From the IMG/VR virus record IMGVR_UViG_3300046791_000584, positions 1 to 41,252 of that record: a stretch of 41,252 nucleotides of DNA; one strand, given 5' to 3'. Position numbers and translations under genes: made by a program. Under the pieces are notes generated by a model, which did no database searches, was not told where the DNA came from, and saw only the letters and a list, made by a program, of their open reading frames with translations. Below are positions 3,103-29,002 of the stretch, piece by piece. The stretch is from a virus. The stretch's first letter is position 1; every line of letters starts with the position of its first letter.

Positions 3103-3141
3103 CAAAAATGGCGACACTCTGTCGCCATAATTAGTACGGGC
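3103..3141 (-). promoter_or_regulatory. Late promoter P5 (packaging unit)
   Basis: Read on the - strand, GCCCGTACTAAT (3141-3130), a 19-bp spacer, then CATTTTTG (3110-3103), with ATG 3096 six nt later. The layout matches four other promoters in this window. The spacer contains a perfect inverted repeat with 7-bp arms, TGGCGACACTCTGTCGCCA (3109-3127), unique to this copy. The hairpin followed by TTTTT also looks like a - strand terminator, so the site might act as a switch. Confidence 0.7.
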
Positions 3142-3169
3142 TTTGATTGGAACCTCTATTGTCTGGGGT

Positions 3170-3199
3170 TTGTTACTTTAATCCTATTAATTAGATTTA
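3170..3199 (+). promoter_or_regulatory. Host-type promoter of the retropepsin cassette
   Basis: TTG (3170-3172), exactly 19 bp, then TAGATTTA (3192-3199). This fits the Bacteroidota vegetative consensus TTG-N19-TAnnTTTG with one mismatch, and lies 34 bp before ATG 3234. Unlike the late promoters it has the normal -33 TTG and lacks the GTACTAAA element, suggesting expression independent of the lytic programme. A short hairpin (CTCG/CGAG, about 3214-3227) lies in the leader. Confidence 0.5.
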
Positions 3200-3233
3200 G
3201 TATAGCTTTACAGCTCGAAAATACGAGAAACCC

Positions 3234-3482
3234 ATGTTAGAGAAGGAATTTCAATGGTTTTTGGACAACCAGAAGGCGTTGGCCACTAAATATGCCAATC
3301 GATACATTGTAATTGTTGGCGATAAAGTCGTTGGTGATTATGAAAGCGAAGGAGAGGCTTATCACGAGTCCATCAAAACCCTGAAGCTCGGTACATTCCT
3401 AATTCAACTCTGCACTGCCGACAAATCCTCTTTTACACAAACTTATTACACTCAGAGGGTAACTTTCCACCAGCCCAGCTGA
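3234..3482 (+). CDS. Small partner protein of the retropepsin cassette (DUF5678-like)
   Basis: An 82-residue protein on the strand opposite to all late genes. The core NRYIVIVGDKVVGDYESEGEAY and the following KLGTFLIQLC resemble the small all-alpha/beta DUF5678-type proteins that often precede aspartyl protease genes in bacteria: a beta hairpin carrying a VVGxxxS-like turn, then a helix and a strand. The gene is 4 bp upstream of the protease and is clearly co-transcribed with it. Its role is unknown; it could be a substrate, a regulator or an inhibitor of the protease. The family suggestion comes from remembered pattern only. Confidence 0.65.
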   Translation: MLEKEFQWFLDNQKALATKYANRYIVIVGDKVVGDYESEGEAYHESIKTLKLGTFLIQLCTADKSSFTQTYYTQRVTFHQPS

Positions 3483-3486
3483 TAGC

Positions 3487-3978
3487 ATGCACGGCTTAAC
3501 AGTTAAGGCCACTGGCATTTCACGCATCATTGTGATGGACATTGCCATATCTCTACCAAGTGCCGTTGCTAAAGCTGGTATTAAGGGAATTTGGGATACC
3601 GGAGCCACATCAACCGTGATCACTCAAAATGTCGTTAATGCGTTAGGCCTAGTACCTACGGGCAAAACGCTTGTAAATACAGCGAGCGCAAACAATGTTC
3701 AGACCAATACTTACCTAGTAGATGTCCACCTGCCAAATGGTTTAACCGTAAAGGACGTAATCGTTACTCTAGGTATCATTATGCCAGGAATCGATTGCCT
3801 GATTGGGATGGATATAATTACACTTGGCGACTTTACAATTACAAATCACGCTGGTCAGACCTGTATGTCATTCAGAGTTCCATCTCAGAATCAGGTAGAT
3901 TATGTTGTTGAGATTAACAAGGTCAATAGAAGGAACTATCTATATCGAGGGACACCGAAGAAAAAACGCACAAAATAA
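3487..3978 (+). CDS. Retropepsin-like aspartic protease
   Basis: A 163-residue protein with a single-domain retropepsin signature: the catalytic GIWDTGATSTVI (Asp37 in DTGA) and the second hydrophobic-hydrophobic-Gly motif CLIGMDIITLGD at about 104-115. Such enzymes must dimerise to build an active site. No signal peptide or membrane segment is seen, so it should act in the cytoplasm. The C-terminus is strongly basic (KKKRTK). The gene sits with its small partner in a cassette pointing against the late transcription units and is flanked by late promoters, typical of an accessory (moron) insertion. The target is unknown: possible roles are host-protein processing, anti-phage activity in the lysogen, or virion-protein maturation. 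Confidence 0.85.
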   Translation: MHGLTVKATGISRIIVMDIAISLPSAVAKAGIKGIWDTGATSTVITQNVVNALGLVPTGKTLVNTASANNVQTNTYLVDVHLPNGLTVKDVIVTLGIIMPGIDCLIGMDIITLGDFTITNHAGQTCMSFRVPSQNQVDYVVEINKVNRRNYLYRGTPKKKRTK

Positions 3979-3999
3979 TCATTTACTAAGACGAAAAGA

Positions 4000-6144
4000 T
4001 TAAAAATCAGCGTCAGCCTGGATATCGTTGACCGTCTTTATAGCATCCCTCGTTTCAGTCACTACGTTTTGCACTTTGATGGTCATCAATTTTTTACTCA
4101 CCACCATGTCCATCATCCTCGCCATTTTTTCGTAGTCAATATCCAAAGGTAATCCGTCCCTGGAAACTGGTCCTCGATCAGGGAAAGGATTTACAGGCCC
4201 ACCTGTAGCCAAATGTTTTGTAAAACGATCGTTGATCCTGCTAAGTGTACCTACACCAATCGCCTGAACGGCTCTCCTGCTAAAGAAAAATTCTCCACCC
4301 TCAAATTCAAGTGGCTGCCCAGTCGACCTGATCACACCAGGCATGCCGCCATCCTGATGGCTCGGACCTTCTACGTATCCACCTCTTTTAAACAATAACA
4401 CTTTGGCTGTTGCAAGACCCGCTCTGAAAAAAGCACGCAAGTTCTGAGCAGCAGTATAAGCTAATCCTGCAGGAACAGTTGCAGGTGCACCAGCTGCTCC
4501 AATCTTGGCACCGGCTGCAGCATTTGCTGACATTTCCTGCTGAAGATGCATTCCGATATCCGCCAGAGCAAAAGTTTTCCTGGCTGCCTTTGCCTGCTTT
4601 TCATTTTTTATTTGACCAGCAATCAATTCTCCAAGTCCTGCAGTTGTCTCCTGGATCGCCTCAAATTTTGTTTGCTCAATCTGTGCTTCAGCAGCTGCAA
4701 TCTTCTCCCGATCGGACAATGCTTTCTTGGCTATTTTATCCTGGTCCTCTTTGGCTTTTTTGAAGTTCTCATTTTCGATTGCCTGATACTTGTCACCAAT
4801 CGCTATGAGTTGTTGAGCTTCAATTTCTTTAAGCAACATTTTCTGCTCGAGGATCTGAGCTTCACTTCCCTGCAGCGCGAGGATCTTCTCTTCAGTTTGT
4901 TGCTGCACCATCGCAACCTCCTGATCAAATCCATCTTGTGCAGCTTGTGCCTTCAGCTGAGCAATATTTTTTGCAATTTCAACTTCACGCTTGGCGATCT
5001 CTTCAACGATATTCAGCTCGAGCGCGCGTGCCTTCTTTTTCTTATCAATATTGTCGGCCTGCAGCTGTATAATTGCAGCTTCGCTCTCGGCTCGCTTCTG
5101 ACGTTCATCATCAGTCAGTATTTTATCAAGATCCTGCTCGAGCACCAGGCGCTGATGTTTCAGTTTCAGGAAGTTCATTTCATCAGCGGTTTGCTGATCA
5201 GTAATGCGTTGAAACTCCTGCGCTGCAGCCAGACGCTCTTGGTCAGTTTTAGAAGTATCCCTGGCAATTGCCATAGCCTCAGATGCCTGAACATTCAATT
5301 TTGCCCGACTAACAGTAAGCCTTGCTTCAACATCCTCGATATCATTCTCCAGCTTCAATAATTTCTGGCCAGCTATCCAGGCAGCATCCCACACCTTCTT
5401 TGTTTCCTGGAAGGCTGTGTTCATTTTATCGGTGGCATTGGTGACACCGGTGGCCAGCTGGATGTGACCGTCAGCTAATTCTTTTAGGCCCTGCTTCCAC
5501 TCACCCTTGAAAAGCTTTACGATCGCCCCACCAATTACTGCGAGAGCTTTGAAACGATTGATGACATTCTCAACGATAACATTGCCTAAATCTTTAAGAG
5601 CCTGTACAGGATTTTCTACGGCCTCAGCCAGGCGTTTGAAAATTTTACCACCGAGCTCAGCAACGAGTCCGGTGATCATTTTGAAAAGAGCCTGCAGCGG
5701 ATACAATACTTCCTTGAGTTTATCAGCTCCCTCTTCAGTCTTGGTGAACCAGGTAACGAGTGCACCCAATGCGAGGACCAGAAGACCTATACCTGTAGAA
5801 GCGATCGCAGTTTTAAGAACACCCATCTGCGTGATCAGTCCACCAACACCTTGCTTCATTAATCCAAACGACTGGACTATTTGATTAAAAAATTGTGCAC
5901 CAGGTAATTTGTTCCATGCAGTTTTCAGCATGTCACTGGCTGAAGTGGTTCCTTCAATCTGCTTCTTAAGATCTCCCTGTAGTTTTTTAGCACCCTCGAG
6001 CTTTTGATGAGCATCCACCCAGGCCTGAGTTCCAACAGCCGCCTTGTCAGCTGCGAGTTGAGTCTCACGAATTTCTTTCTTGAGGCCCTGCATCGTTTTG
6101 CCGGCTAGTTCACCATTAACAAGTCTGATTACTAACTCTGCCAT
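4000..6144 (-). CDS. Tail tape measure protein
   Basis: A 714-residue protein that sets tail length and is injected with or ahead of the DNA. Visible features are a short helical N-terminus, a hydrophobic region at about residues 105-135 (STGIGLLVLALGALVTWF) and a second at about 195-215, then a very long Ala/Gln/Glu/Lys-rich coiled coil (roughly 255-510). The Gly-rich C-terminal block includes RGGYVEGPSHQDGGMPGVI and EFEGGEFFFSRRAV, which is typical of tape measure C-termini. It is the only gene of late unit 4, with its own promoter, and ATG 6144 lies 4 nt after the promoter box. At about 2.1 kb it predicts a tail on the order of 100 nm by the usual rule of about 0.15 nm per residue. Confidence 0.9.
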   Translation of the reverse strand: MAELVIRLVNGELAGKTMQGLKKEIRETQLAADKAAVGTQAWVDAHQKLEGAKKLQGDLKKQIEGTTSASDMLKTAWNKLPGAQFFNQIVQSFGLMKQGVGGLITQMGVLKTAIASTGIGLLVLALGALVTWFTKTEEGADKLKEVLYPLQALFKMITGLVAELGGKIFKRLAEAVENPVQALKDLGNVIVENVINRFKALAVIGGAIVKLFKGEWKQGLKELADGHIQLATGVTNATDKMNTAFQETKKVWDAAWIAGQKLLKLENDIEDVEARLTVSRAKLNVQASEAMAIARDTSKTDQERLAAAQEFQRITDQQTADEMNFLKLKHQRLVLEQDLDKILTDDERQKRAESEAAIIQLQADNIDKKKKARALELNIVEEIAKREVEIAKNIAQLKAQAAQDGFDQEVAMVQQQTEEKILALQGSEAQILEQKMLLKEIEAQQLIAIGDKYQAIENENFKKAKEDQDKIAKKALSDREKIAAAEAQIEQTKFEAIQETTAGLGELIAGQIKNEKQAKAARKTFALADIGMHLQQEMSANAAAGAKIGAAGAPATVPAGLAYTAAQNLRAFFRAGLATAKVLLFKRGGYVEGPSHQDGGMPGVIRSTGQPLEFEGGEFFFSRRAVQAIGVGTLSRINDRFTKHLATGGPVNPFPDRGPVSRDGLPLDIDYEKMARMMDMVVSKKLMTIKVQNVVTETRDAIKTVNDIQADADF

Positions 6145-6148
6145 GGTA

Positions 6149-6187
6149 CGAAACTATTGGGTGGTTTGTGGGTAAAGTAGTACGGGC
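6149..6187 (-). promoter_or_regulatory. Late promoter P4 (tape measure)
   Basis: On the - strand: GCCCGTACTACT (6187-6176), 19 bp, TAGTTTCG (6156-6149), then TACC and ATG 6144. The upstream element differs from the CCCCGTACTAAA form at three positions. It begins right at the stop of the preceding gene (6188), so no room exists for another signal between units 3 and 4. Confidence 0.7.
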
Positions 6188-6658
6188 TCATATAGTTGCG
6201 GCCTCCTGCATGTCTTGTTCAATCGCCTGGTCAAAGGCTGCCAGAACGTTTTGATTTAATTCTTTCAGCACAGCGCTCAGGCTCTTCTTTCTCCAGGGCT
6301 TTGCCTTCCATGTATCGTGCTTCTTCTTATCCCAGGCAACAGCCCAAGCAAGCTTCTCCGCTTTTTTTGGATCGTCTCTTTTTGTGGATGCCCACTCCAT
6401 TAACTTCTTCATGTCCGGCAGTTCGGTCCATTGCATTTTTCGTTTGTCCAACAACTTCACGTGATCATCGAACGTGATCTGGATCACAGGTGACTTAGTT
6501 ACATCACCCTCTACCACATCGACTGTAACGCTTTCAGCACCTGCACCGGTATTTGAATATTTAGGACCTCTCAGTACTTCCTGGATGGAGTGCTTAATTA
6601 TAGACTGATGCCGGTGGGCAATGTCATTGAGTATAATTACCAGGCGCGGACTGTACAT
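6188..6658 (-). CDS. Conserved-looking tail protein, unknown function
   Basis: A 156-residue protein between the tail-tip protein and the tape measure. The N-terminal part (MYSPRLVIILNDIAHRHQSI) looks helical, the middle has a beta-rich stretch (ESVTVDVVEGDVTKSPVIQITFDDHV), and the C-terminal half is Lys/Trp-rich and helical. No signal peptide or catalytic motif is seen. Position in the late unit 3 tail cluster suggests a structural or assembly role, for example tail completion. I cannot name a family. It is the last gene of unit 3 and abuts promoter P4. Confidence 0.65.
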   Translation of the reverse strand: MYSPRLVIILNDIAHRHQSIIKHSIQEVLRGPKYSNTGAGAESVTVDVVEGDVTKSPVIQITFDDHVKLLDKRKMQWTELPDMKKLMEWASTKRDDPKKAEKLAWAVAWDKKKHDTWKAKPWRKKSLSAVLKELNQNVLAAFDQAIEQDMQEAATI

Positions 6659-6660
6659 AA

Positions 6661-8484
6661 TTAAAACGTGTAGAGCTTCACTCGGCTGATCGTTACTCTC
6701 TTCATGGTGAGCTGTACCGATATCGAATAGATAATAAAATTACTCCGGTCAAACCTTGACTTTACGTCCCACTCAACTTCTCGCAGGATCCTGAAAGGGA
6801 AGTCAACATCGATGGTAAGCACCTGCCTGTTGATTCTTTTGTGAAGCCATGACTTCCAATTCTTTTCATAAAGTCCATTGACACCGTCAAACTTTTCATC
6901 GTAGCCGGAAGCATTGACAGACGCTCCCTGATATACAAAGTTCCCATTGTCAACGTCTCCCAGGTAATAAAAAATTCTAAAGGTGAATTTTGACCCTATC
7001 TTTTTTCTAATGTATGGACCTGTGACGTTTCCATCCTCTCCATCGAGTTGTCCAGTGGTGAATTCATTCCGAAGGCCGCTTATGTCGGTTTTAATTTCAT
7101 CCTCTGCTACACCGACCGTATACTCATCAACCTGAACAAATCCATCATCTGGATCAGTCGCAGCCTTCAGTCTTATGCCCGTTAAGCGTTGGTCTTCAAT
7201 GGGTACCACCGGCCCGGATATTGATGTTATATCATTGTATGTTGTTGCCTCAGCAACCGGCCCGCGCTTCTTGATGGTAATCTTCCCGTTCTTCTCATTC
7301 TGATAGATGGCCAGGTTATACCTGTTTTGAAGACTCTTTAAAAAACTAACCACACTCACATCAGGTACCAGATCCGACAAATTGAATGTTCGTCTGCAAA
7401 AAACGAAATTTTTACTGCCGATGTATGGCATAGACACATCCAAGCAAGTCATGTTATCGAGTAACATCTTGGCAGTGTTAGGATCTTCATACCAATCACC
7501 TTCGAAATCGATATCGAATTCGTTGGCAATTTGATCGAGTACAAACTTTACTTTCAAAAACGGATGTATACTGTTGCGGTTGTTTACAATCCACGTTCCG
7601 TTCTCAATAGTGTTTAGTAAGAATCCACTGCCGTTCTTCCCGTTAACAATATCGTTCGGCTTTGGATTGGATGCTTCTCCATACAACCCTGGATTAAATA
7701 GAGTAGGAAAGAACAGCACAGCGTTAACTCCAGGATCCACAAAATCACGAATCGCGTCATTATAATCAGTCATGGCGAACGGCTCAATGTACCACTTAGC
7801 TTTCTCGACCTCGGTGTCTTCGATTGGTTCAACTGAGATAGGCCACGCAGGGTCATGGTTATCTCCGCCTAACAACGTATTGACGGTAACAAACATGTAT
7901 GGATGAGCAGCACCTCCAGGTGTTGAACCCGCAACACTGAGTGACGCACTTACTTTCGTTTCGTTTTCATTCTGATTTATTAGCCCTTGTAAATTTGCCA
8001 GGCTGACTGCAGATATCTCTCTTCCATTTACTTTTAACTTTAATGGAAATGCTACGTTGTTCTTGATGTAGAATCCCTTGGTAAGAGTAGTTTGAATGTA
8101 CGTGTTTGATTGCCCGGTTATAATGTCTCTCAGCTTGGCGGTCTTAATGTTATCCGCGATCGTGCTGATTCCAAAAATGTAGTTAGCCTGGATTACGCTC
8201 TTGTCATAACCTTTTGCTCTCAACAACCCACTCTTCCATGGAACACCACCAAAAAACAATTTAGAAGCTATCGATTTGAATGACTCAACGTTGCCGATAA
8301 CATCCGGATTTTTAAACAGCCTGGAGTTCACCTCGCTCTTCTCCGCACCGGGTAGATTGAAAGGCATAGTGGAAGAACCCTTAATAATGTCACCATCGTT
8401 AAAGATTGGATTGAATAACTCGACACCTATAGTGGTGTCATCGTTCAGCTCAGCAAACGTGTTGTCTATTTGTACACCAATCAT
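6661..8484 (-). CDS. Tail tip or baseplate hub-like protein
   Basis: A 607-residue, mostly beta-rich protein. The first 120 residues (for example GDIIKGSSTMPFNLPGAEKSEVN) look like a distal-tail or hub N-domain. The middle contains LKSLQNRYNLAIYQNEKNGKITIKKRG, a pattern seen in hub proteins of the gpD/gp27 type. The C-terminus (NFIIYSISVQLTMKRVTISRVKLYTF) again looks like a beta-barrel. It starts with ATGA overlap to the SprB-repeat protein upstream. In siphovirus gene order, proteins near the tape measure with this size form the tail tip. The assignment rests on order and general pattern, not on a decisive motif. Confidence 0.6.
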   Translation of the reverse strand: MIGVQIDNTFAELNDDTTIGVELFNPIFNDGDIIKGSSTMPFNLPGAEKSEVNSRLFKNPDVIGNVESFKSIASKLFFGGVPWKSGLLRAKGYDKSVIQANYIFGISTIADNIKTAKLRDIITGQSNTYIQTTLTKGFYIKNNVAFPLKLKVNGREISAVSLANLQGLINQNENETKVSASLSVAGSTPGGAAHPYMFVTVNTLLGGDNHDPAWPISVEPIEDTEVEKAKWYIEPFAMTDYNDAIRDFVDPGVNAVLFFPTLFNPGLYGEASNPKPNDIVNGKNGSGFLLNTIENGTWIVNNRNSIHPFLKVKFVLDQIANEFDIDFEGDWYEDPNTAKMLLDNMTCLDVSMPYIGSKNFVFCRRTFNLSDLVPDVSVVSFLKSLQNRYNLAIYQNEKNGKITIKKRGPVAEATTYNDITSISGPVVPIEDQRLTGIRLKAATDPDDGFVQVDEYTVGVAEDEIKTDISGLRNEFTTGQLDGEDGNVTGPYIRKKIGSKFTFRIFYYLGDVDNGNFVYQGASVNASGYDEKFDGVNGLYEKNWKSWLHKRINRQVLTIDVDFPFRILREVEWDVKSRFDRSNFIIYSISVQLTMKRVTISRVKLYTF

Positions 8485-10697
8485 ATCACTGCTGGAGTAA
8501 AGCTTTCGTTATCGTATCCATCCCTGGTATCGACCCTGATGTAGAGTTCATAATTCTGGTCCTCATTAACATGATCACCAGCGCTGATCGGCATCGGATA
8601 TCGGGATCCATTGGTTACGTCATATACAATCGGACTACCTAAAAAATCCTTCATGTATTCATGCCACTGCCTGGCCATTCGATTCTTAAAATATCCGCTG
8701 CTCAGGCTCGTTTGCTTTTGGTGAGTGATTTGATTGACTGAAAACTGGCCATCCAGTGCTGCGTAGTTGTGTGGTAAAAATTTCTGCACAATCTCCCGAT
8801 TAAATTTTGTGCTTTCAATCACCTGGCCGGTGAACCTTAACACTTCAAATGCGCCCAGGGAGTTTATAAACATAAAGAACCTGGTGAGCGGATGGCTTAC
8901 CGGGTCGATGTAGTATGTACGCACCTCAGTGATTAGATCATCATCCTGGTCCAGTAGGCTCAGCTCGTAATGTGTGGCATTCTTGGCAGGATTAATTAAC
9001 AGAGCTCCACAATTGGCTGGGCCTGCAGGGATCTGGTAAAGCTCCGCGTACTTCGTGCCGGCAAGGGTAATAGTGGTATCTGTTTCATTTGTTGCGTCAT
9101 CGAAGTATACCTTGATGCGCAGCTTTAATGTTGTGTTGTTCCCGTAATTGAAAAAATTCAGGTAGTCCTCCTGTTGCCTGTCCACATACTTCTCCACCGG
9201 TGCCCAGGTTAAAAACTTTTTATTTGTTGGTAGGTAGCTTGTGAAGTAATTAAGACCAGGGAAATGGAACTTACTGACACCACCCCATAATACCAGGTTG
9301 GGAGTTGAACCAACCAGGTCACCCTCATCTGGAATCACCTCATCATCCTGAAGCTCTCCCGAGTAATTTTTGAAGCGCTTGATCCGATCGGTAAGTCGGA
9401 TAATGCTGTTATGGTTTAACGTGGGTGGTATAAACGTAAACACTCCACGGAAAGCCTCGGGTAAATAAAAGATTGCTTGATTGGCTGCATCCGGAGGCAA
9501 CTCAACTTTCAATTTTGAATTATAAATACCAGAGTCGGCCACATCTTCAACACGAGCATCATTGTATAGTCGATAGTTATCGAGTAATTCCCACCCGGAG
9601 GCAGCACCCTTCGAGAATGTGATCGGGTTTTTACTGTGAAAGATCTTATCGATCTCAATAGTTCCCGCAGCAACCACTGCGATATGTACAACGGAATTAC
9701 CAGCTGCGTTCTTTACAGCAATGTAATATGTACCTGGTGCCAGGTCTTCAAAGTTATTGCCTGCCTGGTAAGTATCACCGCCATCTTTTGAAAATTCAAA
9801 AGGACCACCTGTACCGGTTACTGTTATGGATATCGCGCCATCATGCACACCAGAGATGGACTCGTCAGTTACTTCCATAGTGAAGTCGTGCGTGACCGAA
9901 GCGAAGTTCACCTCAAATGGATACTCATCATAGCACTCCGGGGTTGCCTGCTGTCTTACCCGAACAATATAAGTCCCAGTGGTAAGTCCGGTAAATAAGC
10001 TCGACAGCTGCCAGGTTCCACCACCATCTTTAGAATACTCCAGTGTGCCGGTGCCGGTAGCGCTTACGTCAATGGATCCGTTGTTAGCACCCAGGCTGGT
10101 TTCGTTGACTACATCTGTGGCATCAGGATCAATTTCAACATCACAGACAATTGGAGGATCTTCGGTTATGATGTATTCGTAAACTTCCACCTGATCAACA
10201 TACATCAACCCATTCATGTTGATTTCCTCCAATGCCCCAGAAGCCATTAGTCCAAGAGTCGCACCGGCAGAACCTACTAAGCCTGTAGCATGCACCCTGG
10301 CCTCTACCTGTACCCATGTGCCCTTGGCCTGCAACACTGTTTTATTGACATACGAATAAGTACCGATAATTTCTAAAAAATCTTTAAAAGAAATTATTGC
10401 GGTATCGTCAGAAATTGGGTTTCCAACAGGAACGTATACCTGAGCCTTTATCAAGTACCGTTTATTCAGTTCTGTAAAAAAAGATGCAGGTTGAAAACCA
10501 AGGGCATAAAATGTAGGAATTCCTGAGTTGACTTTACCGCGAACTTTTGCACCATAGAGTCCTCCAGTCGCATGATCAGTCGATCGCGTCACTTCAAATT
10601 CTGAAGTATCAGGAAAGCCCCAAGTGCTTCGATCCGTTTCAAACTGACCGCTGTTTGAATTTGTATTTAAATTTCCGGTAACAATTACTTCTGCCAT
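8481..10697 (-). CDS. Tail protein with carbohydrate-binding-like and two SprB-like repeat domains
   Basis: A 738-residue virion protein. Residues 1-175 look like a jelly-roll carbohydrate-binding module of the CBM4/9 kind (FPDTSEFEVTRSTDHATGGL, then GTWVQVEARVHATG and MYVDQVEVYEY). Two tandem domains at about 190-265 and 272-343 match the SprB repeat pattern (DGAISITVTGTGGPFEFSKD ... FEDLAPGTYYIAVKNAAGN). SprB repeats are known from gliding-motility adhesins of Bacteroidota. Residues 345-738 are beta-rich and resemble a tail attachment and receptor-binding part. It overlaps the genes on both sides (TGATG and ATGA). A role in host surface recognition is inferred. Confidence 0.75.
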   Translation of the reverse strand: MAEVIVTGNLNTNSNSGQFETDRSTWGFPDTSEFEVTRSTDHATGGLYGAKVRGKVNSGIPTFYALGFQPASFFTELNKRYLIKAQVYVPVGNPISDDTAIISFKDFLEIIGTYSYVNKTVLQAKGTWVQVEARVHATGLVGSAGATLGLMASGALEEINMNGLMYVDQVEVYEYIITEDPPIVCDVEIDPDATDVVNETSLGANNGSIDVSATGTGTLEYSKDGGGTWQLSSLFTGLTTGTYIVRVRQQATPECYDEYPFEVNFASVTHDFTMEVTDESISGVHDGAISITVTGTGGPFEFSKDGGDTYQAGNNFEDLAPGTYYIAVKNAAGNSVVHIAVVAAGTIEIDKIFHSKNPITFSKGAASGWELLDNYRLYNDARVEDVADSGIYNSKLKVELPPDAANQAIFYLPEAFRGVFTFIPPTLNHNSIIRLTDRIKRFKNYSGELQDDEVIPDEGDLVGSTPNLVLWGGVSKFHFPGLNYFTSYLPTNKKFLTWAPVEKYVDRQQEDYLNFFNYGNNTTLKLRIKVYFDDATNETDTTITLAGTKYAELYQIPAGPANCGALLINPAKNATHYELSLLDQDDDLITEVRTYYIDPVSHPLTRFFMFINSLGAFEVLRFTGQVIESTKFNREIVQKFLPHNYAALDGQFSVNQITHQKQTSLSSGYFKNRMARQWHEYMKDFLGSPIVYDVTNGSRYPMPISAGDHVNEDQNYELYIRVDTRDGYDNESFTPAVI

Positions 10698-19909: not shown

Positions 19910-19914
19910 GAGGC

Positions 19915-19953
19915 CAAACTTAGAGCTTCAAAGGGGTGGGATTTAGTACGGGG
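19915..19953 (-). promoter_or_regulatory. Late promoter P3 (portal, lysis and tail unit)
   Basis: On the - strand: CCCCGTACTAAA (19953-19942), 19 bp, TAAGTTTG (19922-19915), GCCTC, then ATG 19909. The -7 box is a perfect match to the Bacteroidota TAnnTTTG, and the upstream 12-mer is identical to those of P1 and P2. It lies directly after the terminator of unit 2, so a new transcription start is needed here, which is strong support for the motif being a promoter. Confidence 0.8.
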
Positions 19954-19960
19954 TTTATAA

Positions 19961-19990
19961 TCAAAAAGCCCCGCATCCCGGGGCTTTCCT
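19961..19990 (-). terminator. Rho-independent terminator ending late unit 2
   Basis: On the - strand, a perfect 9-bp stem (AAAGCCCCG/CGGGGCTTT, 19987-19965) with a 5-nt loop is followed by TTTTTGATT. It lies about 20 bp after the stop of the last gene of unit 2. The A-run on the other side makes it potentially bidirectional. Confidence 0.85.
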
Positions 19991-20009
19991 TCTTTACCTA
20001 AACCTAAAC

Positions 20010-20213
20010 CTATGAGAGCTTTTTCAAGTACCCTTTTTCTGCAAGTTGCTCAGCGAGCTGCAGGTCAATCTGTGTGAGATCAACGCGGCCAAACTCAGCA
20101 CATACAAAATGCTGAAGCACACCTTCAACTGGTTCGTACTTAGCAGCAACAGCCTCCGGAAGAAAACTTCCGGATGGCTTCTGCTTTTTATTATCGTTGT
20201 TGCTCGGAGGCAT
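20010..20213 (-). CDS. Small hypothetical protein, last gene of capsid unit
   Basis: A 67-residue protein. The first 20 residues are disordered and basic (PPSNNDNKKQKPSG). The remainder looks folded (EGVLQHFVCAEFGRVDLTQI, then LAEQLAEKGYLKKL). The C-terminal pattern, strand followed by a helix ending GYLKKL, resembles small head proteins that dock on the capsid or connector. The start overlaps the upstream stop (TAATG). No family recognised. Confidence 0.6.
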   Translation of the reverse strand: MPPSNNDNKKQKPSGSFLPEAVAAKYEPVEGVLQHFVCAEFGRVDLTQIDLQLAEQLAEKGYLKKLS

Positions 20214-20770: not shown

Positions 20771-20775
20771 AGCTT

Positions 20776-21174: not shown

Positions 21175-21178
21175 GCGC

Positions 21179-22420
21179 TTAAACTTGGTCGCCTACTTTA
21201 ATGGATTGCATATCCTGGATCTGGAAACCCATGCGGACTTTTAAGCCGGCATTCAATTTCCAAAGCTCTGTATCCTTCACGCTGATTGAACTTGCGTCTG
21301 AAAGCAAATCAGTACCCATGAATAAATTCATGTGACGTTGATCGCCAGGCATTACAGGACCTGAAATCAATCTGCGGCTGGATCCTAACCAGGTGGCTGG
21401 CTTCACAATATTTTTATTGTTGGTTTCAGGCATGAAGATAAACCCGTTCTTCGATGCATCGTCCTTGATGTATTTGTATTTCTCGCCAAGGTCATCGAGT
21501 AACAATTCCCAGTCAGTGTATGAGCAACTGGTGATCGTTCCGAAATTTTTTATTGCAGGAATAAAAGCGCGGTGTATTTTTTTAAATGCAGTGATTGCTA
21601 CACCTAATGTGCTGTTAATAACACCAGTTGCAACAGGTGCAATTTCAGTAGAGGTGATACCGGCTAGAATATAAGACTCAATACCTGGAGCAACAGCGCG
21701 TGCGGTTACGTTCTGCCATTTGGTTGGGTTCGTGTCAGGGCTTTGTCCTGCCGTTGTATCCACGATAACCATCCAATAATCTTTGACTCCATTCGGGTTA
21801 TCTGTGGCAGATGCGAACTTTACTTTGGTACCTGCTGATGCTAAATAAACTGTACCAGCTCCCCAATCTGCTGTGGCTGAACTATCAAAACCTTTGTAAG
21901 CTGTTTCATCGTTCATCTCACGTTGTACTGCTTTGATCACCTGATCCCACATGAACTGTGCGAAGGGGATATCCTTTTTCCCTGCTGAAGATCCTGGTGA
22001 ATTTACCCATGCCAAATATGTGGTCATGTAATCTTCTGGATCTATCTGCAGTTCACGCTTACCCACTTTCACTTCCAGGAAGCGATCGGTGTAAGTCAAA
22101 CCTTTTACCTTAAATTCCTGTGTGCCTGAGTAAGGACGGAACCCGTTACCAACTTTTAACTTCGGCATTGGGATCTTGTTCTTAATACCAGGCGCAACCA
22201 GCACATCGTTGGCTATGTCAAGTCCGTTGACTAGCGTGGAGATTAGCTCTTTCTGGTTGTTCGCTGCGAACGAAGTGATCGCACTCAGGTCCGCATCAGA
22301 TAATTTCAATACAACCGTGTACGCTTGCGGTGCGCGTAACAGTAATGGCAATGGGCTGGCAGTAAGTACACTTACTGTTACCAGCAGGAGAATGACTCCG
22401 AAGGATAATAGTTTTTTCAT
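21179..22420 (-). CDS. Major capsid protein with signal-peptide-like N-terminus
   Basis: A 413-residue protein placed just after the protease-scaffold gene, where the major capsid protein belongs. The body (TDRFLEVKVGKRELQIDPED, LGSSRRLISGPVMPGDQRHM, LKVRMGFQIQDMQSIKVGDQ) fits the HK97-like capsid proteins of Bacteroidota prophages. The first 25 residues, MKKLLSFGVILLLVTVSVLT followed by ASP, look exactly like a Sec signal peptide, which is odd for a cytoplasmic capsid protein. ATG 22420 is 1 bp from the upstream stop (22422), so the start is well supported. The neighbouring protease may remove this segment. Confidence 0.8.
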   Translation of the reverse strand: MKKLLSFGVILLLVTVSVLTASPLPLLLRAPQAYTVVLKLSDADLSAITSFAANNQKELISTLVNGLDIANDVLVAPGIKNKIPMPKLKVGNGFRPYSGTQEFKVKGLTYTDRFLEVKVGKRELQIDPEDYMTTYLAWVNSPGSSAGKKDIPFAQFMWDQVIKAVQREMNDETAYKGFDSSATADWGAGTVYLASAGTKVKFASATDNPNGVKDYWMVIVDTTAGQSPDTNPTKWQNVTARAVAPGIESYILAGITSTEIAPVATGVINSTLGVAITAFKKIHRAFIPAIKNFGTITSCSYTDWELLLDDLGEKYKYIKDDASKNGFIFMPETNNKNIVKPATWLGSSRRLISGPVMPGDQRHMNLFMGTDLLSDASSISVKDTELWKLNAGLKVRMGFQIQDMQSIKVGDQV

Positions 22421-22421
22421 T

Positions 22422-23834
22422 TTATTTTACGGTTGAAAGGTCCTTGTTGTTTTTTCTGATCTCAGCTGCTTGAGCATCCACAGAGGTCATGTACCTTTCA
22501 GCACCTTCTTTCTTGGATCCATCATCGTTCACCTGGGCTTCTTCCTTCTTGTCACTTATCACCGTGGTGAGTTGACCAGTAGGTTTTGCGTCAAGCGCAG
22601 TTTTTTGTTCTGCCACTTTCGCTGTGAGGGTTGTCTTCTCACCTTCAAGCGTACTTACCTGAGCATTGAGCTCAGTTACCTTGGCCTCAGCAGAGGTTGC
22701 ACGCGTTTCAGCCGCGATTTTTTCTGCAGTGGTTTTCACAAGATCTGATTCCATGGTTGCTACCTTTTGTTCAGCAGCTTCCAGTGGAGCTTCGTCTTCA
22801 GTGAAAGCACTGACTGCCTTACCCCAAGCCTCGCTTGAGAATAGTGCAGATAGTTTTGGAAACTTCATGATTGTATTTACAGAAGCACTTGCGGTGCTGT
22901 TTGTACTTGTTGGTAATTGTTTTTTTTGTTCACGCGCCAGCTCAGCTACTTTGTTAAGAGCGGTTTGTAGTGTCCCAATCGAATCAATGAGACCAATACG
23001 TTTGGCATCGTTTAAATCGAACATGCGGCCTGCGAATAACCCTTCTGCTTTCGTGTCAAGCTTATCTCCGCGGCCTGATTTTACCGCATCAATAATCATG
23101 GTCGCATACGGGCGGGCCTCTTCTCTCATGGAAGCAAGATCATCTTCCTTCCAGGGTTTTGTCGGATCATACTTTACCTTCTCCGAGCTTTGTGGTGCGG
23201 TGACAATATCAACCTGTGGCATGTTGCCTATCTCCATCATTTTGCTGAAGTTCTGCACCACACGAAGAGCACCAATACTACCAAACTGTGTGGGATTGTT
23301 TTTGTTGCCGATGATAACTGCGCACTGACTTGCTAGCCAGAGTCCAGCACTGGCTGTCATGTTATCTCCAAACCAACCTACTGGCTTTGAAGAATTTTTA
23401 ATAGCCAGAGCAAACTCAGGTGTTCCATCAACAGTTCCACCTGGTGTATCACCAAGAAGTACGGTCCCGTGAACTTGAGAGTCAGCATTTACTCTTGCAA
23501 GCAATGTCTGTAAGGTTTGCATTCCAAGACTACACAGATCGTTGTATTTGGTTACCGGACCAATGACTGGAATCACCGCAATGTTTTTACCGCCTACTTT
23601 AAAAATGGGAACCTGAATCTGACCATAGATATCATAGTAAAGTTTTGCATCAGCAGGCGTTACTTCTGCAGAAGCAAATGAAAGTTCAAGCAGGTTTTGA
23701 ATTCTATCTTTGTGATCCTCAAGAGATACTTTTTTAATGAATCGGTCAAGGTGACCACTCAGAGCAATTGGTGCCCACTGTTTAAAGTAGCTCTCTTCAA
23801 GAGCCCACACGTGATATTGGAGTATCCCAAGCAT
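22422..23834 (-). CDS. S49-type prohead protease fused to a scaffold domain
   Basis: A 470-residue protein from ATG 23834. Residues up to about 290 form an S49 (SppA-like) protease: LLGDTPGGTVDG at about 127-138, the nucleophile Ser162 in MTASAGLWLAS, the FGSIGA motif near 184-189, and a candidate Lys general base in SSEKVKYDP (about 216-224). From about 320 a helical, Ala/Glu/Lys-rich coiled-coil region follows (QKVATMESDLVKTTAEKIAA), typical of scaffolds. The protease matures the head and destroys the scaffold. An in-frame ATG (22868, MKFPKLSALF) could allow a shorter scaffold-only product. TTG and GTG codons slightly upstream of 23834 are less likely starts. Confidence 0.85.
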   Translation of the reverse strand: MLGILQYHVWALEESYFKQWAPIALSGHLDRFIKKVSLEDHKDRIQNLLELSFASAEVTPADAKLYYDIYGQIQVPIFKVGGKNIAVIPVIGPVTKYNDLCSLGMQTLQTLLARVNADSQVHGTVLLGDTPGGTVDGTPEFALAIKNSSKPVGWFGDNMTASAGLWLASQCAVIIGNKNNPTQFGSIGALRVVQNFSKMMEIGNMPQVDIVTAPQSSEKVKYDPTKPWKEDDLASMREEARPYATMIIDAVKSGRGDKLDTKAEGLFAGRMFDLNDAKRIGLIDSIGTLQTALNKVAELAREQKKQLPTSTNSTASASVNTIMKFPKLSALFSSEAWGKAVSAFTEDEAPLEAAEQKVATMESDLVKTTAEKIAAETRATSAEAKVTELNAQVSTLEGEKTTLTAKVAEQKTALDAKPTGQLTTVISDKKEEAQVNDDGSKKEGAERYMTSVDAQAAEIRKNNKDLSTVK

Positions 23835-23842
23835 TATGATCA

Positions 23843-23881
23843 CCAAATTAGAACACTGCTTTTCGGGGCTTTAGTACGGGG
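23843..23881 (-). promoter_or_regulatory. Late promoter P2 (capsid unit)
   Basis: On the - strand: CCCCGTACTAAA (23881-23870), 19 bp, TAATTTGG (23850-23843), then ATG 23834 eight nt later. The -7 box lacks one base relative to TAnnTTTG, the weakest of the five, while the upstream 12-mer is identical to P1 and P3. It begins 6 nt after the stop codon of the previous gene. Confidence 0.7.
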
Positions 23882-23886
23882 TTTTT

Positions 23887-24360
23887 TTATGCGTTGATAA
23901 AGGCATCCAGCTGAGCAAGTATCCAATCCTTTCTAGTCTGGGTGAAAAGTACTGTCGTTGCGATCGCATTGAATGCCGCCCGCGCAACCTGAATGTCGCC
24001 CCACTGCAGCGTGTTCATTGCATCCTTTATTGAGTTGAGTAATGTCAACCTTTGAGAGTTGTTGAGACCATCCATGTTCTTGATTCTGTCGATAACTTGT
24101 GTGCAGAAGTCAATCCCGAAGGCTCTCTCTTTCAAAATTTGTTCGAGTTGTGGTGTCATAGCAAATGGGATATTGTTGTTTTGAAAAGTTAGAATTAACT
24201 CAGGCATGTTAAGTCCAATGGCCAGTGCCATTTGTAAAAGCGTTGTTGGCTCTGCTTGGAGTGCGCAGTGAGTATCAAATGGAAATGCTGTGAATGCGTT
24301 ATCGTCAGTCGTAACTACAGTTACGATCGCTTTTGATTTTCTGTCGTAGATTATTCTCAT
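23887..24360 (-). CDS. Hypothetical protein following the LRR fibre
   Basis: A 157-residue protein, beta-rich at the N-terminus (MRIIYDRKSKAIVTVVTTDD) and helical afterwards (KDAMNTLQWGDIQVARAAFN). The gene begins 2 bp after the LRR fibre gene and closes late unit 1. Phage genes in this place often encode a fibre assembly chaperone or a fibre cap. No family recognised, so the role is a position-based guess. Confidence 0.6.
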   Translation of the reverse strand: MRIIYDRKSKAIVTVVTTDDNAFTAFPFDTHCALQAEPTTLLQMALAIGLNMPELILTFQNNNIPFAMTPQLEQILKERAFGIDFCTQVIDRIKNMDGLNNSQRLTLLNSIKDAMNTLQWGDIQVARAAFNAIATTVLFTQTRKDWILAQLDAFINA

Positions 24361-24361
24361 A

Positions 24362-26803
24362 TCAATTGTAAGTCATAGTCCATGCAAAAACATTTACCAG
24401 GATAAATAGTTTTTCCTTTTCATTCGCAGGCGCGCTACCTTCCACGTAAGCACTGCCACCACTTATGTAAGTTGTATATGCTGTACTGTTAATCGCTGAT
24501 GAACCAGCTTCATTCCAAAGTTCAAACGTATTACCAGAAATATTTTTAATCATGAAGTATTGTTGATTCACCTCGGTCATTCCAAGAACACTGCGTACTC
24601 TGATCACATTATTGTTCGCAAGCGTACCTATGGCACTTACTGTCATTACTGCTGTCGCTGCCTTTGTAATTCCTGTTACCGTTGCTGTCTTGTATCCTGT
24701 TGGAGCAACGAACGTTCCTGAAGGGGCTGCGTTTGTTCCAGCGATGTTCATGGATTTAGCTGCTACTGTCGTATCCCACTTCCTGCGATTTGTATAAATA
24801 TTATTGATGTTCAAATTAACATTGGCATTACTCATTGAGTTATTTTGAATCAATATTTCGGTTGGAAGCCAGTTGTTCGTACCAAATTTGAAATCAATAT
24901 TTAATGCACAAGCGTCTGCGAAGAACTGCCTTGTACCAGTCGCTGTTAAAGTATCATAATTGATGTTCTCAATATTTGTCATTGTCGCCAAAACCGTGCA
25001 ACCCCTGAAGGTAATTGTCGATGCCAAAAAAACAGTCATTACCGATCTGGCTTGCGTAGTGGGGAATGTGACTGCTGTTAAAACAGTACATCCGTCAAAA
25101 TTCATTGGGCCGTTAAGGAAACTGTTAGTGCCAACCCATAACAACGTTGAGGTTCTACTTGAAAAGTCTACTGTTACTATAGCACAATTTTTCGCACTGA
25201 CACCTTGGAGTACTGGCACTCTCGTAAAGTCAAAAACAAAACTCGCATTGTTATCAACAATCAAAAATCTCAAAGAGCTAATTGTACCAGCAGCGATACT
25301 TGATAAATTATTTGCAGCAAGAGACACATCAATTATGGATGTTGGTAATTTCAAGCTCCCACTAAGCACAGATTTGTTACCAAAAAAAGTGGTTAATAAA
25401 GTAAGTGCCGAAAGATCAACGTTAGCTCCCAAGCCATTTGTACTGTTTTGTCCATCCTCTATTCCAACAAAACCTTGACTACCAGTGACAGTCCATAAAA
25501 TTCTTAAATTAGTCATTGCTTGTATCTGACTAATCAAACTTGGATTTGTAGACACATCCAACTTGTTACCACCTAAATAAAGATTTTGAACTGTAGTGTT
25601 AACTGGCAACGTCAAGTTTGAAATCTTACTATTACTCAGATCGATTGTAACAGCGGCCGTTATTCCGGTGATGCTAACTGTTGCAAAGTCATTCTTACTC
25701 GCTGCTGCTAACGATACTGTGTTATTGCCTATTTTAAACTCAGTTAACGTTGCCTTTGCAGTTGTGATCGTGATGCTACCAGTAATGATGTTTCCCCAAA
25801 AATAAAAATGAACAAGTGATGAAGCGATGTCGGCGTTGACAAGACTGCGTGTCCAAGTAAGGTTATCATCATTGCAATAAAATTTTGCGAGAACTGACGA
25901 AGCTAAAGCCAAGTCTATTGCTGTACGCAACTCACTGGCCGTAATGGTAGTGGTTGAATTTATCTGGAAAAATTTAAACACACTTGACGCATGAAAGACA
26001 ATGGATGTGAGTGTGCCTAACCTTATAGCTATCACTTCCAGTAAAGGGCAATGTGCAAAGCTCATCGTTCCTGTCAAAACCATACAGTTTGTGTTGAACG
26101 TGTAGAAAGTATAAGGCGAAACTTGAAAATCAGTGTTACTCGTAACAAATATTGCCTCCTTTAAATTAACGCATTCAGTAATCCTGTCATTCAACACGCT
26201 CGCAATCCCGTTAGCTCGAATTTCTAACCTCTCAAGTGTTGGTGGAAACTTATATTCTATCGTGTTGAATTGAATAAAGTTGAAAATCGAAAACGGAACA
26301 ACGTACAAGTCTTTGAGTCTTGTAAACCGCCCCTTTATACCTTTGATGCTATCCGCAGAGCCGGGGCCTGAAGCACCGGGAACCTGGCCGAGATAACAAG
26401 TTTTTGCATTGATAAATGCACTTACGTTTATAAAATCACTTCTGTCACATGCACCGCCAGAAAGTTGTATCGATAAAATTCGATCAGGATTAAAGTTGAA
26501 AACCCTGTTCTTAACCAAAGCCCTTACAGTTACACTGTTATACAAGTAACCACGAGTCGGGAGTGCATTACTGTGCTTGCCGTTTACAACACCATCGTTT
26601 GTAACTTGTGTTGAACTCAATAAAAGTTTTTTATCTGGCGTTGCTTCTACTGCGTTTATGTCAAACAGAAATTTGATCATTGCACCATGTATCGCATTGT
26701 AATTCCAATGTTCTAAAAAATAATATCGGTCAGGCGTGAAGACTGCACCAAGTGTGTCGAACTCGTCAAGCGTTTGATATTTTCCAAAGAATCCAAACAG
26801 CAT
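24362..26803 (-). CDS. Leucine-rich-repeat tail fibre / receptor-binding candidate with FCCH-like domain
   Basis: An 813-residue protein. From about residue 180 to 620 it contains many imperfect leucine-rich repeats of 21-25 residues (for example PTSIIDVSLAANNLSSIAAG, VQNLYLGGNKLDVS, LTEFKIGNNTVSLAA). Around residues 690-770 is a domain of the type often called E1 FCCH-like in phage tail proteins: TATVTGITKAATAVMTVSAI, then NNVIRVRSVLGMTEVNQQYF and the NTFELWNE strand. The first 120 residues would attach it to the virion. It lies between a canonical tail fibre protein and a small gene. LRRs are binding scaffolds, so receptor recognition is inferred. The large size and low codon-level conservation of the repeats suggest rapid evolution. 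Confidence 0.72.
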   Translation of the reverse strand: MLFGFFGKYQTLDEFDTLGAVFTPDRYYFLEHWNYNAIHGAMIKFLFDINAVEATPDKKLLLSSTQVTNDGVVNGKHSNALPTRGYLYNSVTVRALVKNRVFNFNPDRILSIQLSGGACDRSDFINVSAFINAKTCYLGQVPGASGPGSADSIKGIKGRFTRLKDLYVVPFSIFNFIQFNTIEYKFPPTLERLEIRANGIASVLNDRITECVNLKEAIFVTSNTDFQVSPYTFYTFNTNCMVLTGTMSFAHCPLLEVIAIRLGTLTSIVFHASSVFKFFQINSTTTITASELRTAIDLALASSVLAKFYCNDDNLTWTRSLVNADIASSLVHFYFWGNIITGSITITTAKATLTEFKIGNNTVSLAAASKNDFATVSITGITAAVTIDLSNSKISNLTLPVNTTVQNLYLGGNKLDVSTNPSLISQIQAMTNLRILWTVTGSQGFVGIEDGQNSTNGLGANVDLSALTLLTTFFGNKSVLSGSLKLPTSIIDVSLAANNLSSIAAGTISSLRFLIVDNNASFVFDFTRVPVLQGVSAKNCAIVTVDFSSRTSTLLWVGTNSFLNGPMNFDGCTVLTAVTFPTTQARSVMTVFLASTITFRGCTVLATMTNIENINYDTLTATGTRQFFADACALNIDFKFGTNNWLPTEILIQNNSMSNANVNLNINNIYTNRRKWDTTVAAKSMNIAGTNAAPSGTFVAPTGYKTATVTGITKAATAVMTVSAIGTLANNNVIRVRSVLGMTEVNQQYFMIKNISGNTFELWNEAGSSAINSTAYTTYISGGSAYVEGSAPANEKEKLFILVNVFAWTMTYN

Positions 26804-26805
26804 AA

Positions 26806-28335
26806 TTAGTTTGGTTGTAAGTCAGGAGTGATCACAACATCCAATTTTCCAGTGACGCTACATTTAAAAACAAGTGTGTCAATCGCAGTACCTACTCCGT
26901 TTGTTGCGGGGTTGGTCAGTATAGGAGCCTGCCCAAGCGGGAACCTGAACTTTGCTGCTGTGAATGCTATCGTATAGTTCGTTGTCACCCTCGTAATATC
27001 AAGATAATAAACAGCACCAAGCTTTTCACTCGTGAATGTGAACGATGTAACGTTCCCGGTAAATGCACACTTGAAGTTTCTACCTGTCGATAAGTCAATT
27101 ATCACAGCACCGGATAAATTACCAAGATCAACAATAGCGGCAGCGTAGTTCCTTAGCTTCAGTGGAGTAACCATTCGAGTGTCATCTGTTCCAGTGTCAG
27201 TCTCAGCCTGGGTTGCGATCTCAGCTCTGCCCTTTACTGTTTCGCTTGCATCGAGTGTGGCCCACCAGGTGAGTAGCTTTGTTGGGTTAACATAAAGCCT
27301 TGCGCCTGTACCGCCCGCACCGGTCCCGGCAGTCACTTCTGCATCGGTTGCTTCTTCAACAATTCCCTTAACTGTTTCACTTGCGTCAGGCACGCTGGTA
27401 CCAAGCTGTGACCAGAGAATGTTTGAGGATCCTAGTGTTATTCCATCAGTTGTTTGGATCCATGTTGTGTTTTCATTGACGGTACCTCGTTGAACGGTTA
27501 CTGCCACACCCTCGAGCTCAGCTGCGGCATCAGCATCAACTGCTCTTACCCAGGCACCGGACTTGCATAAGTAAATTCCATTTTGAGTTTGCGTTGTTTG
27601 TGCTTTAACAAGAACACGGTCATCGGCAACAACACTGATGCCATCAATAGTTTGAGTTCCTGACAATGTAATGTTCGCTGTTGTCGCAACTTTAACTGGG
27701 GCTTTCCAGGAAGTGACAATCGCAAGCGCAGCTGCATCAACATAAGCTTTCGTTGCAGCATCCTGGGCAAGTATAGGATCTGCGAGATTTTTTATTTGTT
27801 GAGCACCAGCATCGTTGCCTGCAGCAAGGACCGTTGAAAGCTTATTTACAAATCGTGCCCACTTCCCTCCGGTAAATTCTGTTTCAATGTTGGTGCTGTT
27901 GAATGGGCGAACAGGTTCTACAAGTAAATAGAAGCCACGACCTGCTGTGCTGTGGTTGTGGTAAACAATCACAAGTCCGGATCCGTAAATACCTGCAGCC
28001 CATTCTTTGATTGCACTGCCATCGCTCGGACTTACTTCAATCCAGTAGGTGTTCTCTATAGTGAGTGGATTGGTTGGTGGTTGATTGGCTATGTTGCCAT
28101 TTGTTTTTGTTTTCCAGAATCGGATGTTGCCATCAGTATCGGGCTCAGTACAAAAGGATCCTGCTCCGGATCCATCCAGGTTAAACGTTAACAGGTTGGT
28201 CCAGTCTGGTATTCCGGTGGTGATCGCCTGCGTGATGAAGTCAACGATGGCATCGAGCACATCGTATTCCTGGGCAATGGTCCGCAGTGCAACTAGCTTT
28301 TCACGGAAATAATTTTTTAGCTCGGTCTGGTTCAT
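26806..28335 (-). CDS. Tail fibre protein
   Basis: A 509-residue fibre protein with modules common to many phage fibres. ILAQDAATKAYVDAA is at about 187-201. A domain follows with KAPVKVATTANITLSGTQTI, DRVLVKAQTTQTQNGIYLCK and NENTTWIQTTDGITLGSSNI at about 212-310. Two copies of the phage-fibre motif DASETVKGIVEEATDAEVTAG / DASETVKGRAEIATQAETDTG lie at about 318-395. The C-terminal 110 residues are beta-rich (FKCAFTGNVTSFTFTSEKLG) and probably form the tip. The start overlaps the stop of the tube-like gene (ATGA at 28332-28335). The assignment is firm; receptor specificity is unknown. Confidence 0.88.
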   Translation of the reverse strand: MNQTELKNYFREKLVALRTIAQEYDVLDAIVDFITQAITTGIPDWTNLLTFNLDGSGAGSFCTEPDTDGNIRFWKTKTNGNIANQPPTNPLTIENTYWIEVSPSDGSAIKEWAAGIYGSGLVIVYHNHSTAGRGFYLLVEPVRPFNSTNIETEFTGGKWARFVNKLSTVLAAGNDAGAQQIKNLADPILAQDAATKAYVDAAALAIVTSWKAPVKVATTANITLSGTQTIDGISVVADDRVLVKAQTTQTQNGIYLCKSGAWVRAVDADAAAELEGVAVTVQRGTVNENTTWIQTTDGITLGSSNILWSQLGTSVPDASETVKGIVEEATDAEVTAGTGAGGTGARLYVNPTKLLTWWATLDASETVKGRAEIATQAETDTGTDDTRMVTPLKLRNYAAAIVDLGNLSGAVIIDLSTGRNFKCAFTGNVTSFTFTSEKLGAVYYLDITRVTTNYTIAFTAAKFRFPLGQAPILTNPATNGVGTAIDTLVFKCSVTGKLDVVITPDLQPN

Positions 28336-28958
28336 GGTCCGGTGGTGATAAAATATTCTGTGAATGAATAGTCGGATGTGATCTCGAGTGTGTCACCTGG
28401 TTGAAGGCTGGCGATCACAACACCGTTGAATGTTACTACTGACGGCAAAGGACCAGCTGGTGCCGCGAGGATGGCGCCATTGTATTCGAACATGTTCTCT
28501 GGTCCTTCATAATAAAACTCGCACTCGTATCCGTTCTTTCCGGAGGGTGCGTTGCCACTGCTATGGCTGAAGCGAAACTTCACCGGTGCATCGAATAGTC
28601 CGAAGATCTTCTGCTTACCGTTGGCATCTTTGTACAGCACGATGAGCTCGTCATCGCTTGCCTTCTCAAACATTGCTCGGATCGTTGCTCTGTCTTTCGG
28701 AACAGAAAACTTCAGGCGATTGCCTTTGGTTGTTCCTTCGCGCGTCTGTCGGCTGTTACTATCGGCACCTGGTGTGTCGGGTGTTACTGCCCAGGTAACA
28801 AAACCCTTATCGGGCAGGAAGACAATATCACCATACACAATGCCGGTGAACGGATCCTGGATGGATTCGATATCGGCTTTGCGTGCCACCTTAATTTCGA
28901 GCAGGCCGCCAATGTTATCGGCAGCGTTGAAGCGCGTGATGTTCTGAAGGTAGCCCAC
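28332..28958 (-). CDS. Tube-like structural protein, first gene of late unit 1
   Basis: A 208-residue beta-rich protein. The start is GTG 28958, which lies 5 nt after the P1 promoter box, so the mRNA would be leaderless. It looks like a distant paralogue of the 20213-20770 product (see there) with an additional C-terminal domain of about 45 residues (PSVVTFNGVVIASLQPGDTL). That extra domain may be an Ig-like tail decoration. It is followed by the fibre genes, so it may link fibres to the tail or decorate the tube. The family is not certain. Confidence 0.65.
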   Translation of the reverse strand: MGYLQNITRFNAADNIGGLLEIKVARKADIESIQDPFTGIVYGDIVFLPDKGFVTWAVTPDTPGADSNSRQTREGTTKGNRLKFSVPKDRATIRAMFEKASDDELIVLYKDANGKQKIFGLFDAPVKFRFSHSSGNAPSGKNGYECEFYYEGPENMFEYNGAILAAPAGPLPSVVTFNGVVIASLQPGDTLEITSDYSFTEYFITTGP

Positions 28959-28963
28959 GATTG

Positions 28964-29002
28964 CAAAAATGCTGCATGCGCGCGCGGGACTTTAGTACGG
29001 GG
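28964..29002 (-). promoter_or_regulatory. Late promoter P1 (fibre unit)
   Basis: On the - strand: CCCCGTACTAAA (29002-28991), 19 bp, CATTTTTG (28971-28964), CAATC, then GTG 28958. The -7 box is identical to that of P5. The GC-rich spacer (CGCGCGCGC) makes the two conserved boxes stand out. Confidence 0.75.

Follow-up and report, generated by a model that had tools for sequence, protein, structure and literature searches.

How does a phage switch on late promoters that keep the -7 box of the host's vegetative promoter and carry another element in place of its -33 TTG? The question is raised by five sites in the phage of IMG/VR virus record IMGVR_UViG_3300046791_000584 (W), whose 41,252 bp (45% GC) form the window, the whole stretch of DNA analysed here. 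The Bacteroidota vegetative promoter is TTG-N19-TAnnTTTG. The terminase gene of W lies at the low end, the integrase and cI-like repressor genes lie at the high end and the late genes are on the minus strand, a layout which, judged from gene order, is that of a temperate siphophage of Bacteroidota. An earlier reading of the letters (the sequence-only reading) had taken the retained -7 box and the replaced -33 TTG as marks of an activator-dependent or sigma-appropriating late regulon, and this view draws support from the conserved operon heads, the spacing, the scarcity of the composite inside coding sequence, the drift of the core and the regulator-led predictions described below. We judge it quite likely that the five sites are late promoters switched by a phage-encoded activator, with the host primary sigma factor kept.

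A search of both strands for the exact motif located just five copies of CCCGTACTA in the window, all of them on the minus strand, with the G of GTACTA at positions 28998, 23877, 19949, 6183, and 3137. Each copy is followed, exactly 19 nt after the 8-mer, by a TAnnTTTG-like box matching at least five of the six informative letters, a score reached at 0.6% of the positions of the W genome, and a start codon stands 4-8 nt after each of the five boxes (Table 1). No composite of element and box at N19 was found in 200 shuffles of W, in which the mean number of bare 9-mers was 0.1. When all 6- and 7-mers were ranked, without prior knowledge, by their co-occurrence with the box at N19, GTACTA came first in W. 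The five minus-strand positions and the exact 19-bp spacing given by the sequence-only reading were borne out by these searches. The late sites have TAnnTTTG at -7, and GTACTA or GTCnn is found where a primary-sigma promoter of Bacteroidota has its -33 TTG, so that several late units share an element that stands in for the -35/-33 hexamer a fixed number of base pairs from a host-type box, as activator-dependent late promoters do. A scan for sigma-70-type promoters is uninformative for this phylum. Since the boxes lie only a few nucleotides from the start codons, the mRNAs made from these promoters should be leaderless or nearly so.

Table 1. Positions of the late promoters of W and of associated features.
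Feature	Position	Strand	Description
Late promoter 1	28964..28998	-	GTACTAAA-N19-CATTTTTG; unit 28958-23887, tail/fibre-type genes; GTG 28958, 5 nt past box
Late promoter 2	23843..23877	-	GTACTAAA-N19-TAATTTGG; head protease/major capsid unit; ATG 23834
Late promoter 3	19915..19949	-	GTACTAAA-N19-TAAGTTTG; unit from 19909 with 108-aa gene, portal-like gene, head/tail genes
Late promoter 4	6149..6183	-	GTACTACT-N19-TAGTTTCG; before 714-aa virion structural gene, ATG 6144; lineage-specific
Late promoter 5	3103..3137	-	GTACTAAT-N19-CATTTTTG, hairpin in spacer; terL unit, ATG 3096
Proposed late regulator, 156 aa	29181..29651	-	Directly upstream of first late promoter, end of early operon
Lone GTACTAAA	29164..29171	-	10 bp past regulator stop codon, 173 bp upstream of promoter 1
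Intrinsic terminator	19962..19990	-	GCCCCGGGATGCGGGGCTTTTTG; immediately upstream of promoter 3
Terminator-like hairpin	3108..3128	-	ATGGCGACA-GAG-TGTCGCCAT; nested in promoter 5 spacer; T-run doubles as -7 box
115-aa early protein	30049-30396	-	Hydrophobic segment, Arg-rich tail; conserved in nine relatives
cI-like S24 repressor gene	38510-39367		

Fourteen relatives of W were obtained from scans with the capsid and portal proteins (G006 and G007 are near-duplicates of each other), two of them in contigs of metagenome-assembled genomes labelled Cyclobacteriaceae and Cytophagales; a first scan of genome contigs with the protease gave no matches. Comparison with these relatives showed that the element and its box stand 32-51 nt before the aligned start of the orthologs of genes 28958, 23834, and 19909, the core being GTCCTA in most relatives, GTATTAA in G005, and GTACTA in W; before the first of these genes, G005 has no element. 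Promoters 2 and 3 were conserved in all relatives that have the gene, with one exception of placement at the protease of G002, where the element is farther from the aligned start, and promoter 1 was also conserved in G409. With a fourth conserved site before the terL unit, four of the five sites of W are conserved at orthologous genes. The 6144 site was not found in the relatives: it is a 43-bp gap made of promoter in W, between two genes that nearly abut in its closest relatives. The upstream regions of operon-internal orthologs in the relatives contained no such element. A motif occurring just as often inside coding sequence at the same spacing would, according to the sequence-only reading, have spoken against it; in the Cytophagales-type phages, a box of 4/6 or better at N19-20 accompanied 51 of the 63 cores outside long open reading frames and 7 of the 31 inside them (p = 6e-8), and start codons most often stood 3-5 nt past the box.

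Contrary to what the sequence-only reading implied, the promoter class is not confined to W and is spread over much of the phylum. Among 138 cores in 22 phages, the box was found at N19 in 68 cases, at N20 in 21 and at N18 in 12, when about 6.7 are expected per spacing, the cores of the more distant phages having been picked partly after inspection. The spacing claimed as fixed at 19 bp is indeed 19 in W and is mostly 19 or 20 in its relatives. Six GTCCTTTT sites at N19, with boxes of varying quality, precede late genes of Polaribacter phage Leef_1 (elements at 470, 1809, 2476, 10521, 30639, and 34591), and five such sites each were found in Microcystis phage Mea-Yong924-1 and Cellulophaga phage Ingeline_1. 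With GTCACAA as the core, Flavobacterium phage laban6-1 has five sites, and phage 6H has four with GTCTTAAA at N18-19. Four sites were counted in Bacteroides phage BT-TP2 (elements at 10592, 17978, 25812, and 32317) and in each of two Porphyromonas gingivalis phages, and three in gut phage MT835542.

The core is uniform within a genome and different between lineages, and the spacing and the -7 box are retained. It is GTACTA in W, GTATTAA in G005, GTCCTA in most phages, GTCTTAAA in 6H, GTCACAA in laban, and GTCCTTTT in Leef, Ingeline, Porphyromonas phages, and BT-TP2. An element is present at all sites, as claimed for the -33 12-mer, but a lineage-specific GTNNTANN or GTCnnnnn fits better than one fixed 12-mer. 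A looser k-mer test (N19 or N20, any start codon) was too permissive for ranking, and the N19-only ranking was used instead; it placed the core first in W, G003, G004, G011-G014, Mea, laban, and Porphyromonas 032a. Co-evolution of the sites with a reader encoded by the phage would produce just such a core, uniform within a genome and drifting between lineages, and we infer such co-evolution here.

Two annotations in these phages deserve comment. The portal, the protease, the regulator, and the late promoters of Mea-Yong924-1 (L074), labelled a Microcystis phage, resemble those of Bacteroidota phages. The label may therefore name the wrong host, and a Bacteroidota bacterium associated with Microcystis is the likelier one. 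In Porphyromonas phage032a (L080), the annotated start of gene 26279-26713 ('acr candidate') lies upstream of a late promoter, and the ATG located 4 nt past the box is the likelier start.

The best candidate for the phage-encoded reader is the 156-aa protein whose gene ends the early operon. Its homolog was found in the same place in 12 of the 12 genomes holding the region (W included), and it was the only early protein, of those examined, present in all 12. Searches of Pfam, PHROG, and PDB sequences gave nothing useful for this protein, and Foldseek against the PDB gave no match with E below 0.001. In the AlphaFold (AF2) model (pLDDT 85.9), the strands and helices follow the order E-H-H ... 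E-H-H and three helices make up the C-terminal part, and the fold is predicted to combine a TraY-like N-terminal half with a helix-turn-helix (HTH)-like C-terminus. The tandem ribbon-helix-helix of TraY has two beta-alpha-alpha repeats that form a paired beta strand, to which the predicted E-H-H repeats may correspond. When the N-terminal 108 residues were modelled alone, the only chains above Z 5 were those of the F-plasmid relaxosome (9f0x, 9f0y, 9f0z, and 9f10; Z 5.8-6.3 over 82-92 residues), which we take to be TraY, and the C-terminal part matched TnpE (2rn7) with Z 5.6 over 55 residues. Unlike the relaxosome protein, with which the modelled half shares about 10% identity, the regulator has an extra C-terminal HTH-like part and is a phage gene without oriT context.

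A stronger match was obtained in BFVD with the Leef_1 protein A0A8E5EBJ1 (E 1.7e-5, TM 0.76), and the best match to the regulator profile in Leef_1 was Leef1_39, which has the same size as that protein (157 aa) and is located at the early/late border. Profile comparison also placed proteins of Mea-Yong924, laban6-1/6H, and MT835542 in the family, and tblastn from profile members added those of 18 Porphyromonas gingivalis phages and gp8 of BT-TP2, which is annotated as a 'transcriptional regulator'. In G011-G014 (L043, L044, L046, and L049), the regulator gene and the first late gene point the opposite way from the remaining late genes, and the element is found at the promoters of both strands. 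The presumed recognition helix has N in W and Q in G005, the two phages with an A at core position 3, and mostly D or A in the GTCCT phages; this correlation is suggestive and we do not claim it, as only two genomes, with closely related regulators, underlie it. Another early protein, e30396 (30049-30396), was rejected as the trans-acting factor: it has a hydrophobic segment and was undetected in G011 and G014, though the element is present there.

The gene for the putative DNA-binding protein, whose binding is predicted from the model, precedes the late genes and is found together with the element. Among the loci found by the regulator protein alone, GTCCTA was first of hundreds of k-mers at N19 in G409, G334, and G086 and second and third in G188, and the sites in all four precede start codons and closely follow the regulator gene. 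G140, also found by the regulator, ends at a contig edge and was left out of the judgement. In BT-TP2 and P. gingivalis phage 017a, reached via the regulator, GTCCTTT ranked first. In two Bacteroides phages that gave no match to the regulator, B124-14 and crAss001 (first 50 kb), the list had no GTCCT k-mer, and the composite was not enriched in a Bacteroidota host chromosome (98+79 versus 159+173 for the reversed control). The late-promoter class appears activator-dependent and is probably Bacteroidota-wide, with a new regulator family. On balance we lean towards the broader view that a family of small two-domain regulators and a GTC-type element-N19-TAnnTTTG promoter control the late genes of temperate siphophages of Cytophagales, Flavobacteriia, and Bacteroidales, with near-leaderless mRNAs, a co-drift of element and recognition surface that yields orthogonal pairs, and a variant with the terminator of the preceding unit in the spacer.

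Such an arrangement was seen at the terL promoter of nine phages, W and eight others, where a terminator-like hairpin (TGGCGAC...GTCGCCA) occupies the spacer and its T-run is the -7 box; in G005 it is doubly compensated (TGGCCAG...CTGGCCA). In G409 (L113/L114, 2746-2780), the terL promoter has a loop-less palindrome, TGGCGATCGCCA, in the spacer and a box, TAGGTTTG, apart from the palindrome. Terminators adjoin the 5' side of the element in several phages, namely W (19962-19990), Leef_1, G005, G009, and G012. At least nine phages (W, G002, G003, G011-G014, G409, and Ingeline) have extra cores shortly past the regulator stop codon, most of them without a good box and 40-170 bp ahead of the first late promoter; the lone GTACTAAA of W is a possible extra binding site for the regulator.

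In the mechanism that we propose, the regulator would be made at the end of the early operon and would bind GT(A/C)CTAAA at about -41 to -34, so that the bound element would occupy the place where the host sigma factor would otherwise need the -33 TTG. It would recruit host RNA polymerase with the primary sigma factor, which would read the TAnnTTTG -7 box 19 bp downstream, and transcription would begin at the start codon or a few nucleotides before it, giving leaderless or near-leaderless mRNAs. The terminators abutting or nested in some promoters would insulate each late unit from the preceding one. The sites, their spacing, conservation, lineage-specific drift and position, and their association with the regulator gene are seen in the sequence, whereas the binding, the activation, the timing, the use of the primary sigma factor, and the start points are inferred, and the simplest reading would be a class-II-type activator that substitutes for the contacts of sigma region 4.

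The most serious competitor, which we nevertheless consider improbable, is sigma appropriation, in which the regulator or a partner would remodel region 4 of the host sigma factor as AsiA and MotA do in T4. The element lies at the -33 contact position of sigma region 4, the -7 box is kept, and parts of the C-terminal domain of the regulator align weakly with sigma-A chains (Z 3-4). However, a simple class-II activator gives the same geometry, and neither an AsiA- or MotA-like protein nor a second universally conserved small early gene was found; the early proteins scanned had no Pfam match to the AsiA-like anti-sigma family, a search that a diverged protein would escape.

There is only a slight chance that the element is the operator of a repressor silencing the late promoters until induction. 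W does have a cI-like S24 repressor, and lone extra cores lie near the regulator gene, but the element is present in all relatives and a cI-type gene was seen in one only. The element moreover takes the place of the -33 hexamer, always at one distance, and no normal promoter is left for a repressor to block.

We give marginally less credence still to a host or phage alternative sigma factor reading the entire GTC...N19...TAnnTTTG promoter. The fixed spacing of the two boxes is what a sigma factor would lead one to expect, but the -7 box belongs to the primary sigma factor of Bacteroidota, the host chromosome is not enriched in the promoter, and lone cores occur without a box. The extra cores near the regulator gene, most of which have no good box, fit a multi-site DNA-binding protein better than a sigma factor. 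Among the small early genes scanned, the sole sigma-like Pfam signal was one for region 4 (PF08281) in the HNH gene at 34284-35165; it was below the cut-off (17.9 bits versus 25.7) and was found in 3 genomes. That the element works in RNA, as a translation or leader element, is hardly credible: a start codon is always found some 40 nt downstream of it, but a canonical -7 box follows it, terminators adjoin its 5' side, and no shared RNA structure and no Rfam match were found.

Several results weigh against an activator of this family as the reader of the five sites. Sequence alone does not separate an activator from a small sigma-like or sigma-appropriating protein. The fold matches of the regulator are weak (VIA Z 5.0-6.3) and possibly reflect just a common arrangement, and its homology to the Ingeline protein (E 6.6e-5 with a widened profile) and to the Porphyromonas proteins is remote and was established partly via intermediates. 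At the first late head of G005 the element is missing, and the core was not first in the N19-only ranking of G001, G002, G005, G007-G010, Leef, Ingeline, MT835542, and 6H. The link between regulator and element is an association, and the portal, the protease, and the terminase are also common to these phages; it spans related phages, so that descent is shared. This last objection is countered most strongly by the presence of the element where the similarity of the regulators is barely detectable.

The late promoters resemble the Bacteroidota vegetative promoter in their -7 box and 19-bp spacing and differ from it in the lineage-specific GTNNTANN or GTCnnnnn that stands for the -33 TTG. Like Mor and C of Mu, Ogr of P2, and B of 186, which serve activator-dependent late or middle promoters of temperate phages, the proposed activator would be a small phage protein, made before the late genes, that binds beside the -35 region or across it at several late promoters with a host-type -10 box. 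Those systems belong to another host phylum, whereas the promoter here is of the -33/-7 type, no sequence relation was detected, the protein is predicted to be TraY-like and HTH-like, and its GTC element is one-sided with a fixed 19-bp spacing. In T4 middle promoters (MotA box and AsiA), the -35 hexamer is likewise swapped for a phage element and the -10 box kept, but here no AsiA or MotA homolog was found, the element and spacing are different, and the phages are temperate siphophages.

No publication describing the element was found in open-access full text, and how Bacteroidota phages, some of the most common in the human gut, the mouth, and the coastal sea, control their late genes is apparently undescribed in the literature searched. 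The motif allows late operons and near-leaderless start codons to be annotated directly, as suggested for several phages. A kind of promoter shared by phages infecting gut Bacteroides and oral Porphyromonas makes late-gene control testable, gp8 of BT-TP2 being a candidate switch gene in a tractable host, Bacteroides thetaiotaomicron, and lineage-specific activator-promoter pairs could serve as orthogonal expression parts for Bacteroides.

Between the late units of W, the gene at 3487-3978 on the plus strand encodes a protein with a DTGA motif that looks, by eye, like a retropepsin-type aspartic protease.

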